Source: an uncultured Alphaproteobacteria bacterium
GTDB taxonomy: Bacteria; Pseudomonadota; Alphaproteobacteria; CAAHEQ01; UBA3637
Length of the DNA: 37,587 nt
Direction of reading: 5' to 3'
NCBI GenBank assembly: GCA_944391565.1
Contig: CALXUB010000031.1
Coordinates: 1-37,587, forward strand
A program made the position numbers and the translations under genes. Below the pieces are notes generated by a model that was not told the DNA's origin, ran no database searches, and saw only the letters and a list, made by a program, of their open reading frames with translations. Each line of letters opens with the position of its first letter. Within the stretch, counting starts at the first letter, position 1. This document shows, one piece after another, positions 1 through 24,247 of the stretch.

Positions 1-71
1 AAAAAAAGAAAAAAAAAAACTAATTTCAAACATTTAAAAAAAACAAAAAAAAAAAATAATTAAAAAAACTC

Positions 72-100
72 TTGCTTTACCCCCCCCCCCCCAATATACT
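72..100 (+). promoter_or_regulatory. Candidate phase-variable promoter of the pilin-like gene
   Basis: A -35-like TTGCTT (72-77) and a -10-like TATACT (95-100) are separated by exactly 17 nt, and 13 of those 17 are an uninterrupted run of C (80-92). Poly-A and poly-T tracts upstream (1-70) resemble an UP element. The start codon of the pilin-like gene follows at 200, leaving a leader of about 90 nt. Homopolymer C tracts between -35 and -10 switch surface-protein promoters on and off by changing the spacing, as known for Bordetella fim genes and Neisseria opc and porA. The boxes are read directly from the sequence; the switching is inferred. Confidence 0.65.
80..92. repeat. Poly-C homopolymer tract, 13 C
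   Basis: Thirteen consecutive C residues lie in an otherwise extremely A/T-rich region. It is the only C or G run of this length noticed in the window. Its position inside the promoter spacer makes tract-length variation likely to alter transcription of the downstream gene. Confidence 0.9.
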
Positions 101-199
101 ACAAAAAAAGAATAAAAAAATATGTAAAATAACCAAGAAACTCCGTTATTTTGCTTGCGAAAAATATTTAGAATACAAAAGATAAAACAGGGTATACAC

Positions 200-1822
200 A
201 TGAGAAAAAAAATTCTAGCAGCTTCTTTTACAGATCAAACCGGCAGAACGATTTTAGAAATGTTGAGCATACTTGTGATTGTCGGTGTCCTCAGTATTAC
301 AGCGTTAGTTGGTTTTACCTATGCCATGAATCGGCACAAGGCCAATGAAACCGTTCATGATGTGATGCTGCGTGCTTCCAATGTTCCCATGATTGATGAG
401 TTTTATGCCAAACGTACAGGTGATTACGAATGGACTTTTGCCGGATTGCCCGAAAATGGAAAGCAAGGCACTTTTTACACAATGCAGACACTGGTCTCTG
501 ATTTACCGGATTATTTATTTCGCGTAGTAGTTTCCGATGTGCCGAAACGTGTATGTTCTCAAATTATTCGTTTAAATCCGTCACATGTTGATGCTATTTA
601 TGTTGAGGCCGATGAAATAACAGATGAAATTTGTCCAAATGAAACAAACTCCATGGCCTTTTATTTCAAAGGTTTCAGTGATGAAACACAAAGCGATTTA
701 CCTGAAATACCGTCTTGTGAAAATATTGATTGCGGTCTTGGTTCTACCTGTGTTGAGGGTATCTGTGTTCCATGTACTGACGGCAGTGTATGCAACTGTC
801 CCAGCGGCACATGGAATACAACGGCACACTTATGCTGTGAGGAAGCGAACGAACCATCCGAAAGTGTTTGTTATACCTATGCTTTAGCTGATGCAGCGGA
901 TGGACAGTGCCCCGGCTATACCTTCACTTATCTTTCTGGACTTTGCGGAACAAACGGTTATTGCAATAATGGTGTCTGTACAGAATGCTCGGAAGACGAA
1001 CTTGCTTCTGAAGACGGATGTGAGATGATTCCATGCGAGCTGACCGATGATAATATTGCTTCAGCGACAACAGAATATTGCTGCACAAGCTTTGGAGGCG
1101 TATGGGAAAATGAAACATGCGCTTGCCCGGAAGGATACATATTTGACGCCGAAACGGATCAGTGCATCGAATCGGATGGACAATGCATCTATAACTATAA
1201 CAATCCGAACAGCATTCAAGTTTCTTATGCAGATTGTACTTACACAAATGTTATTATGGATGCCTCTCAAGAATCGTACGCGGATTGTATTTACAGCAAT
1301 GCCGACCCGGCAAGTGGAGAAACCTTATCCATGTCATCACAAATGTCATGCCCGTCCGGTCAATACTGTTATTTGAAATGGACAACGGACAGCTGTTCGT
1401 CTGAAACAGGAGCTTCAGGAGCAACCACGTTATACGGACGGTGTTTGCCACTGGATTCAACGAATGCATATTGTAAAAAACGGTCCGACGATAACCTGAA
1501 TATGTCAGCGACTCAATCCTGTCCGTCCGGTCAATACTGTTATTTGAAATGGACAACGGACAGCTGTTCGTCTGAAACAGGAGCTTCAGGAGCAACCACG
1601 TTATACGGACGGTGTTTACCACTGGATTCAACCAGCGCCTCTTGCCGAATTACATACAGCGCAAGTTTGGAATTAACAGCGATCCAATCATGCCCATCTA
1701 ATCAGTATTGTTATCTCAAATGGGCCGGAGAAAACTGTACGTCGGAGGTTAGTGCCAGCGGCGCAAATCCGTTCTATGGTGTTTGCCTGGAGTTGGATTC
1801 GACAAACGCGGTTTGTCCGTAA
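200..1822 (+). CDS. Pilin-like, cysteine-rich repeat surface protein
   Basis: This is a 540-residue protein. The ATG at 200 is preferred over the upstream ATG at 155 because it has AGGG about 8 nt upstream and starts directly with a type III (prepilin) signal. The leader MRKKILAASFTDQTG is followed by RTILE, so a prepilin peptidase would cut after Gly15 and leave Glu at +5, then a hydrophobic helix to about residue 40. Residues to about 170 look pilin-like. Residues about 175-320 are rich in Cys with EGF-like spacing (CGLGSTCVEGICVPC). Residues about 370-540 hold three 57-residue repeats with the pattern C-x5-C-x8-C-x15-C-x9-C. The protein is probably exported and anchored or assembled by a type IV pilus or type II secretion-like machinery; no such machinery is in the window. 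The ligand is unknown. Expression is probably phase variable. Confidence 0.8.
   Translation: MRKKILAASFTDQTGRTILEMLSILVIVGVLSITALVGFTYAMNRHKANETVHDVMLRASNVPMIDEFYAKRTGDYEWTFAGLPENGKQGTFYTMQTLVSDLPDYLFRVVVSDVPKRVCSQIIRLNPSHVDAIYVEADEITDEICPNETNSMAFYFKGFSDETQSDLPEIPSCENIDCGLGSTCVEGICVPCTDGSVCNCPSGTWNTTAHLCCEEANEPSESVCYTYALADAADGQCPGYTFTYLSGLCGTNGYCNNGVCTECSEDELASEDGCEMIPCELTDDNIASATTEYCCTSFGGVWENETCACPEGYIFDAETDQCIESDGQCIYNYNNPNSIQVSYADCTYTNVIMDASQESYADCIYSNADPASGETLSMSSQMSCPSGQYCYLKWTTDSCSSETGASGATTLYGRCLPLDSTNAYCKKRSDDNLNMSATQSCPSGQYCYLKWTTDSCSSETGASGATTLYGRCLPLDSTSASCRITYSASLELTAIQSCPSNQYCYLKWAGENCTSEVSASGANPFYGVCLELDSTNAVCP
1341..1822 (+). repeat. Tandem coding repeats, 171-nt period, three copies
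   Basis: Three in-frame copies of a 57-codon unit begin near 1341, 1512 and 1683. Copies one and two are almost identical at DNA level: 1352-1461 and 1523-1632 differ at one position in 110. The third is diverged in both DNA and protein but keeps all five Cys positions. A shorter degenerate 51-nt repeat (SYADCTYTN then SYADCIYSN) precedes them around 1220-1300. The near identity of copies one and two indicates a recent duplication or gene conversion. Confidence 0.9.
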
Positions 1823-2502: not shown

Positions 2503-4596
2503 ATGATGAACTCAGAAGACGAAGATGATTTGATGACAGCCTATGACGAAGATGATGACGCACCGGCTGCGGAACAATCTTTAGGACCTGCTTTTGAAAA
2601 ATTGCTTGAAAAAGCAAAGGAACGCGGCATCGTCACTGTGGACGAAGTTGGCGACGCCATCCCTCCCGACATGGGGCCGGAAGCGATTGAAGAAGCTATG
2701 GCTATTCTGTCCAGCCATGAAATCACCGTCTCGGATAAAGAAGATTTAGAAGACACAATCGTCGAAAAAGAACCCGGGGATGAAGAAGAAACCGAAGAAG
2801 ATGCTTTGGCTTTGGGCCGCACTAATGATCCTGTGCGCATGTACTTGCGGGAAATGGGAATTGTTGAGCTGTTGACTCGCGAAGGCGAAATTGCCATTGC
2901 AAAACGAATCGAAGCCGGTTGGAATGTCATGATGGGCGGTCTGTCCGAAAGCGCCATGACAATGAAAGCTTTAATGGGGTGGCATAACGCTTTGTTGACC
3001 GGCGATATGTTGTTGCGTGACATTATTGACTTAGAAGCAACCTACGAAGCCGACCCTTCCAAAAAAGCTTTGTTAGCCGCAATTGAAAAAAAAGAAGAAG
3101 CGGCTCTTGAAACCCCTGCTCCGGTCAAAGCTCAGCCTGAAGAAGAACAACAGGAACCGGTAGTCGAAGAGGATGAAGAAGAATTCGAAGATGAAGATTT
3201 TGAAGACGAAGAAAACGACGATGATGAGGAATTAGGCGAAGAGGATACCGAAGATCCTATCGACGATGAAGAAGAGGAAGAAACCGTCGAAGAAGAAGAA
3301 TATGATGAAGAAGAAGACGGTAGCTCTTACTCTTTGCGTCAAATGGAAGAAGCTTTACTGCCTCAGATTCTTGAAACACTTGAAAAAATCACAAAAACAT
3401 ACGCCAAGTTAAAAAAGCTGCAAAATATCCGAATCGATTACTTGTTGAAGGGGAAAGACGTCCCTGTAGAGACCGAAGACAAATATCAAAAAATTCACTT
3501 GGAAATGATTGAATTGTTGAAAGAAATTCACTTCAATCCTTCCCGCATTGAACAACTGATCGAACAAATCAATGACGTCAATAAACGCTTAATGATGCTG
3601 GAAGGCAAACTTTTGCGCCTGGCGACGAATTCTAAAATTAAACGTGAAGATTTCCTGGATTTTTATCGTGAAACCGAAATGAACCCCGACTGGCGCAAAG
3701 CTGCAGCCAAACGTTCCGGAAAAGCTTGGAAAAACTTTATTGAAAAATATGCGGATGAAGTCGATGATATTCGCTTTGCCATCTCCAGTCTGGCTTCTGA
3801 AACTCAAATGCCCATTGTTGAATATCGCCGAATTGTCAATACTGTCAAGAAAGGTGAACAAGAAACGAATCGAGCCAAACGAGAAATGATTGAAGCTAAC
3901 TTGCGGTTGGTGATTTCCATTGCAAAAAAATATACAAACCGCGGACTTCAATTTCTGGACCTTATTCAAGAAGGGAATATCGGATTAATGAAGGCGGTTG
4001 ATAAATTTGAATATCGTCGTGGATATAAGTTTTCAACTTATGCTACCTGGTGGATCAGACAAGCTATTACCCGTTCCATTGCGGATCAAGCCAGAACGAT
4101 TCGTATTCCGGTTCATATGATTGAAACAATTAATAAATTAGTCCGTACGGGACGACAAATGCTTCATGAAGGTGGACAAGAACCAACACCGGAAGAATTA
4201 GCTGCAAAACTGAACATGCCACTTGAAAAAGTTCGTAAAGTGATGAAAATTGCCAAAGAACCTATCAGTTTGGAAACACCCGTCGGAGATGAAGAAGACA
4301 GCCACTTAGGCGATTTTATTGAAGATAAAAGCACGATTCAACCTCTGGATGCTGCAATTCAATCTAACCTGCGCCAGGCTTGTTCGGCAGTTTTATCAAC
4401 ATTAACGCCTCGTGAAGAACGTGTTTTGCGTATGCGATTCGGTATCGGAATGACATCTGACCACACTTTGGAAGAGGTCGGTCAACAATTTTCTGTGACA
4501 CGCGAACGTATTCGTCAAATTGAAGCAAAGGCTTTGCGGAAACTTAAACATCCGAGTCGTTCCAAAAAATTACGGACGTTCCTGGATAATTCATAG
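2503..4596 (+). CDS. rpoD: RNA polymerase primary sigma factor (sigma-70)
   Basis: This is a 697-residue protein, longer than most RpoD proteins. Region 1.1 (about residues 28-80), region 1.2 ([20 protein letters not shown], about 108-127), a long non-conserved region, then regions 2, 3 and 4 are all present. Region 2 shows the core-binding and -10 recognition helix ([20 protein letters not shown]). Region 4 shows the -35 recognition helix-turn-helix ([20 protein letters not shown]). Within the non-conserved region, about residues 205-275 are almost continuous Glu/Asp, which accounts for the extra length. The start at 2503 follows a weak AAGG; Met2 is equally possible. Several promoters in the window match the TTGACA / TATAAT specificity expected of this factor. 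Confidence 0.97.
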
Positions 4597-23489: not shown

Positions 23490-23594
23490 GAAAAATTTAT
23501 AAAAAATTTACTTTTATTCAAAAAGATCTTTTCAGATCATTTTAGAAAATACAAAAAATCTTTCATTTTTTTATAAAAAAGGCTTGTCAATCAT

Positions 23595-24247
23595 AAACAT
23601 CATCAATTCGGCAGATCTATACTTGAGATGCTGAGTGTCCTAGCGATTGTCGAAGTTCTGTTCATCACGGCCGTCGTTGGTTTTAAAACGGCAATGAATA
23701 AAAACCGAACAAACCTTTTAATCAAAGATGTTTGATTAGCTGCTTTTACTGTTTTAGACGAGATGTTTGAAGTCTTAACAGAAGAAAAAACAGCGATTGC
23801 ATCAGCGGTGAAGAATTTTGTTTCTACCCGGTGGGGAAACCTAAAATGACTGGTAGACTACCGGCTGTTCAGTTCGCTAACTACGGTCAACGTAGTTCAC
23901 TTAAAGAAAGCGACAAAAAGATTATTCCTGTCGAAGATATTTTTCTTACGGCCGGTAATACCAAAATGAATTGGTAGAGTTGTATGAACTGGTGTGAAGC
24001 CCAAAATTTAATATTAGTTGACATTCCGAAAGTTTGTAATGGCGGAATGACAAAAGAAGACTGTATGACATCAGTAATTTATGATGTACTGATTACTCAA
24101 ATTGAGACTTTTTGGACACGTCGAGAAAATGTCGGTTGGTGGGGAGACGATGCTTGCATAATTGACAGAAGAAGCGAAAAAATCGTTAATTGTGGTGCCC
24201 CCGAAGAGCATTGGTCCTATGGCTTTATACCTTTATGTATTAAGTAA
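23595..24247 (+). pseudogene. Decayed pilin-like protein with lectin-like C-terminus
   Basis: Translation of 23604-23732 gives QFGRSILEMLSVLAIVEVLF then ITAVVGFKTAMNKNRTNLLI, clearly the same prepilin-type leader and helix as the gene at 200-1822 (QTGRTILEMLSILVIVGVLS). No start codon remains. There is an in-frame TGA at 23733, a frameshift near 23800, and a TAG at 23975 replacing the second Trp of MNWW. The second half (LTAGNTKMNW-stop-SCMNWCEAQ) matches the MNWWSAxxWCEAQG module of the secreted protein at 1898-2293 and ends ...FIPLCIK. The segment from ATG 23984 is therefore only the tail of a broken gene. It lies between adk and rpsM, antisense to both. Confidence 0.85.

Follow-up and report, generated by a model that had tools for sequence, protein, structure and literature searches.

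Putative poly-C and poly-G phase-variation switches in the promoters of a type IVb-pilin-like family of an uncultured alphaproteobacterium

The best-known cases of phase variation by homopolymer runs come from a few pathogens, among them Neisseria, Campylobacter, Helicobacter, Treponema and Bordetella. In Bordetella, the promoters of several fimbrial paralogues carry a C-stretch. These fim genes encode the major subunits of a chaperone-usher fimbria and work with an activator, whereas the genes described here encode type IVb-like pilins with no known activator.

Three further systems come close to the present case. In Neisseria meningitidis, the porA promoter has a poly-G run between its -35 and -10 boxes, with an optimum of 17 nt (PMC7864442). 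At opc of the same species, a run of 12 C gives more protein than a run of 11 C, and run instability is higher in a mutS mutant (PMC3447861). Treponema pallidum tp0126 also has poly-G between -35 and -10, again with an optimum of 17 nt, and in the tpr genes several paralogues of one surface family each carry a poly-G run (PMC7864442). In Campylobacter, the number of G/C runs has a median of about 20 in C. jejuni and reaches 81 putative repeats in one doylei strain; 77% of the runs lie inside ORFs and the modal length is 9–10 (PMC6321876).

Like porA and opc, the locus studied here has a G/C homopolymer in a surface-protein promoter. It differs from them in lineage and protein family and in the many paralogues that carry the device. 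Unlike the Treponema genes, the paralogues are alphaproteobacterial type IVb-like pilins, and their coding strands carry either C runs or G runs. What is shared with Campylobacter is a small genome holding G/C runs by the dozen, which there control surface structures; here, a large share of them sits in the promoters of one pilin family. The mechanism itself is already known. In the open-access literature, we found no description of it for an entire family of type IVb-like pilins in this lineage, and what is notable is the scale and the lineage. Open-access literature on phase variation and alphaproteobacteria, combined with metagenomes or homopolymers, yielded nothing relevant. The initial annotation of this DNA knew of no description for this pilin-like family in gut Alphaproteobacteria.

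A poly-C run between dnaG and rpoD

Position 1 of the analyzed stretch of 37,587 nt (the window) coincides with the left end of contig C31 in the source assembly (1.27 Mb, 37 contigs, 94% complete). The source genome is a short-read MAG, so run lengths carry error and may be off by one or more. A direct count bears out the 13 C residues reported at positions 80–92 (plus strand), our presumed slippage switch. This is the only C/G run of at least 9 in the window, where 0.06 matches are expected. The predicted -10 box TATACT follows at 95–100 (plus strand), with a spacer of 17 nt at n = 13; the window letters are as described in both respects.

The -35 box did not fare as well. It was reported as TTGCTT at 72–77 (plus strand), which is what the window letters give, and proved to be a misreading of TTGACT, found in a cleaner copy of the junction at the end of contig C15. 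This contig end (L057) aligns with window positions 1–131 on both sides of the run, with scores of 53 and 49 against 36.5 and 31 for the best of 300 shuffled controls; the second pair of values belongs to positions 1–79. Toward its end, C15 carries uvrA-like, GatB/YqeY-like and dnaG ORFs, followed by ACTTCTTGACTTT-C14-AAATACTTC. The names uvrA-like and GatB/YqeY-like are our own reading of the translations. The dnaG ORF is intact up to its junction with the run. The window in turn contains rpoD, the gene of the primary sigma factor (2503–4596, plus strand; Pfam Sigma70 regions 1.1–4), and in both sister species dnaG lies directly next to rpoD. From the two-sided alignment and this conserved neighborhood, we take the end of C15 and the start of C31 to be one locus, with the apparent order dnaG, run, pilin, minus-strand ORF, rpoD.

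Both contigs are clean as far as the run and degraded past it. Comparable degradation is found at other contig ends (for example, L058:4571 compared with L054). The letters of window positions 1–79 are low-quality read-through past the poly-C, not to be trusted as they stand. What had been taken for a region almost devoid of C or G corresponds, in degraded form, to the 3′ end of dnaG together with the promoter's -35 region.

With the -35 box taken from C15 and the -10 box from the window, the composite promoter TTGACT-TT-C13-AA-TATACT (n = 13, 17 nt) has p = 0.006 against shuffled sequences, and p = 0.011 at n = 14 and 18 nt. The promoter as read in the window, with TTGCTT, is not significant (p = 0.23). 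The run thus stands between predicted -35 and -10 boxes at near-optimal spacing.

Between the pilin gene and rpoD, the minus-strand ORF at 1898–2350 encodes a small, apparently secreted Cys-containing protein (CEAGTEITGKNGHVYCKSNNTMNWWSAATWCEAQGRHLASMEEMC), for which a Pfam search gave no match. A scan of the contig collection for same-species copies returned only two relatives, 56% and 29% identical, and no same-species copy was found among viral contigs. In another genus (G039), a pilin gene lies downstream of dnaG without a run.

The pilin-like protein and its family

The gene downstream of the run had been called pilin-like, and this reading holds. A prepilin-like ORF extends from an ATG at 200 to a stop codon ending at 1822 (plus strand) and encodes 540 aa; ORF, family alignments and a structural model together point to a type IVb-pilin-like protein, presumed to be phase-variable. 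TTG at 155 was considered as a start codon and is less likely than ATG at 200. The prepilin motif is QTG followed by RTILEMLSILVIVGVLS (QTG-RTILEML...). It has the form G-xxxxE, with a hydrophobic helix, and its G and E are invariant in sets of 12 and 42 aligned relatives. The C-terminal part is Cys-rich, with near-identical repeats. Three of these stand in tandem at 1320–1820 (CPSGQYCYLKWTTDSCSSETGASGATTLYGRCLPLDST), a possible site of changes in repeat number.

The window protein has no match in Pfam. Several of its paralogues score 12.9–16.5 bits with N_methyl (PF07963), below the cut-off of 21.2. An AlphaFold2 model of residues 13–202 (pLDDT 87) consists of a helix at 3–53 (51 residues) followed by a beta-sheet head, and the PDB chains closest to it are type IV pilins, mostly of the IVb class. 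The top structural match is 9iuf, an ETEC pilus (Z 10.2, 142 aligned, 3.5 Å); others are 3fhu (PilS of S. typhi, Z 9.7), TcpA and CofA. The Foldseek E-value of the pilin match is modest (6.7e-3). The model thus predicts a pilin fold, with its long N-terminal helix and beta-sheet head.

A profile of the pilin family finds 34 loci in the source genome and has matches in 43 of 43 family genomes examined. The genome also encodes a PilB/GspE-like protein of 566 aa (E-value 1e-30 to E. coli HofB), and its gene adjoins a PilC/GspF-like ORF of 373 aa. The pilin gene at the end of this PilB/PilC-like operon has no run. A pilin-family fragment at window positions 23589–23807 is interrupted by an in-frame TGA, lacks an upstream run and is probably a decayed paralogue.

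G/C runs in the genome and its relatives

The genome holds 65 C/G runs of at least 8, of which 61 are of at least 9; a first-order Markov model predicts 3.6 of the latter. A/T runs of at least 9 are fewer than expected (27 versus 65, in 316 kb read). The lengths of the G/C runs cluster at 11–16 (54 of 65) and peak at 12–15, above the 7–11 reported for tprL and the modal length in Campylobacter. Many runs stand at surface-structure genes, among them the pilins and a secreted Cys-rich family, as in a phasome of contingency loci.

A TTGA(C/T) box lies within 3 nt of the run at 22 of the 65, compared with a mean of 1.4 and a maximum of 7 in 1000 shuffles. The coding strand has C in 6 of these runs and G in 16, and such indifference is expected if only spacer length matters. 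After poly-G runs there is often an extended -10 box, TGnTAnnnT. Nearly all promoter-spacer runs precede members of the window gene's own pilin family: about 15 paralogues have a run of their own between a TTGACA-like -35 box and a -10 box. Counted by locus, a run lies no more than 420 bp upstream at 21 of the 34 pilin-type loci, mostly in promoter spacers and on either strand. Upstream of the pilins on C22, C30 and C33, runs are present and no good promoter pair was found around them. Some of the inferred spacers are 19–20 nt long; these may be OFF states or wrongly assigned boxes.

Elsewhere, the run touches a reading frame. A few pilins have it inside the start of their ORF. In a second secreted family, which is Cys-rich and without a match in a Pfam search, the run falls within the first codons (AAGGAG...ATGTTCACTTTAACCAAA..A-Cn) and precedes a signal-peptide-like stretch. 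As assembled, the reading frame is kept in seven copies of this family and lost in at least three, a mixture that frameshift switching would give. The remaining genes adjoining runs include a GT2 glycosyltransferase and an ORF (L040) with what we read as ankyrin-like repeats. Members of the Cys-rich family without a poly-C run occur in the sister species next to mutS (L254:5130-5756 and L255:1967-2593).

Across the family genomes, G/C runs are common and mostly low in number. Runs of at least 9 number 8 and 11 in the two sister species; a genome of a third group, G017 (genus g8), has 74. The sister-species pilin promoters, which we read directly, have the form TTGACA-N16-TAGGGT or similar, with TGn before the -10 box and no run, whereas in the source species G12–G15 fills most of the corresponding spacer. 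The sister species, with their related promoters lacking runs, offer a before-and-after comparison for the birth of such a switch. In G017, TTGACA is followed by G9–G14 before pilins, which suggests that promoter runs were gained independently. Four genomes from other genera (G003, G020, G048 and G049) have 70–81 pilin-family matches and few G/C runs; if their pilins switch, they would need another device.

A slippage switch and its alternatives

The best explanation, which we hold with good confidence, is that slipped-strand mispairing causes transcriptional phase variation across the pilin family, in the manner of porA and tp0126. In this model, a type IVb-pilin-like surface protein would be transcribed from a sigma-70 promoter (TTGACT-TT-Cn-AA-TATACT) in which the poly-C run acts as the spacer. 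Mispairing of slipped strands during replication would add or remove single C residues, and the resulting shifts of the -35/-10 distance around 17 nt would turn transcription up or down. Where the run lies inside the start of the reading frame, as in a few pilins and the Cys-rich family, slippage would instead shift the translation frame. We infer that slippage takes place in the living population, that it changes expression, in a graded or an ON/OFF manner, and that the products are displayed on the surface. Probably, a whole family of surface proteins is flipped on and off by DNA slippage. The initial annotation had proposed a promoter-spacer switch from the window alone. This is still the best reading, with the arrangement recurring before about 15 paralogues and before the pilins of another genus; the appeal to a known Neisseria architecture was also apt, given the match with porA and that with tp0126 (PMC7864442).

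Run lengths differ between otherwise similar copies. The two contig copies of the window junction have 13 C (C31) and 14 C (C15), in a short-read MAG whose lengths carry error. Pairs of paralogues with near-identical flanks have runs of 14 and 13 (80 of 80 adjacent bases identical), 15 and 12 (78 of 80), and 14 and 13 (79 of 80).

Homology between paralogues often breaks off at poly-C runs, with about 95% identity on one side and unrelated sequence on the other (flanks of L041, L043, L045, L048, L054, L055 and L085). L041 and L085:2428 agree at 97 of 100 positions on one side of the run and at 34 of 100 on the other; for L054 and L082 the counts are 39 of 100 and 95 of 100. Such boundaries reflect either cassette exchange or assembler chimeras. 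The runs might, on this evidence, mainly be recombination boundaries at which pilin or secreted-protein cassettes are swapped behind different promoters, and the absence of a pilin between dnaG and rpoD in both sister species fits. We consider this unlikely as the main role of the runs: repeats misjoined during short-read assembly could look like mosaics, and exchange leaves the placement between -35 and -10 unexplained. It is also compatible with the switch model. A tentative synthesis would be a combinatorial pilus coat, evolved separately in at least two genera, in which about twenty type IVb-like pilin paralogues each have a promoter switch made of a G/C run, and in which promoters and pilin bodies are also exchanged between paralogues at the runs.

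Rather doubtful is an action of the run in the promoter by means other than spacing, such as shifting a regulator site, bending the DNA or hindering its melting. Precedent exists in opc and tprL, whose mechanisms have been contrasted with porA-like spacing (PMC7864442), and the spacers of 19–20 nt seen at several promoters would be less puzzling. Against it, many copies have the run between recognizable boxes with either C or G on the coding strand, and the corrected window promoter has a spacer of exactly 17 nt.

It is very improbable that the runs are neutral and regulate nothing, having arisen by slippage or mutational bias. Their occurrence throughout the family, mostly in small numbers, would suit this view, as would the fact that MutS was not found in the source assembly (G000), where MutL is present. 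Yet their placement is non-random, at 21 of the 34 pilin loci, at TTGAC boxes and at the ORF starts of one secreted family, and A/T runs are depleted rather than expanded. The mutS gap, moreover, looks like missing assembly. A block of about 16 kb around the sister mutS is missing from the source assembly, including neighbors on both sides (YifB, AmpG, and lipase-like, histidine kinase, MMPL-type and acyl-CoA ligase genes). We therefore take the block to be probably an assembly gap and possibly a real deletion, and reject loss of MutS as the cause of the runs. In G017, the genome with the most runs in the family, MutS is present and no MutL match exceeds the cut-off in the assembly.

A sequencing or assembly artefact (poly-G dark-cycle tails or collapsed repeats) is hardly credible. 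It is true that 40 of the 65 runs are found no farther than 1 kb from a contig end, with degraded sequence beyond the run at such ends. The other 25 are more than 1 kb from any end, have clean unique flanks and so are not read-tail artefacts. Run lengths cluster narrowly, the flanks joined across the run make sense as promoters or ORFs, and the window junction is validated by dnaG-rpoD synteny.

Slipped-strand switching thus stays the preferred reading. In its number of G/C runs, this uncultured alphaproteobacterium with a small genome equals the run-rich strains of Campylobacter, and the runs are concentrated on one pilin family. Short-read assemblies break at such runs, so pilin repertoires are probably undercounted. 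If the switching is real, the set of large pilin-like proteins on display would differ from cell to cell, which would suggest that host immunity, phages or changing attachment sites exert strong pressure.
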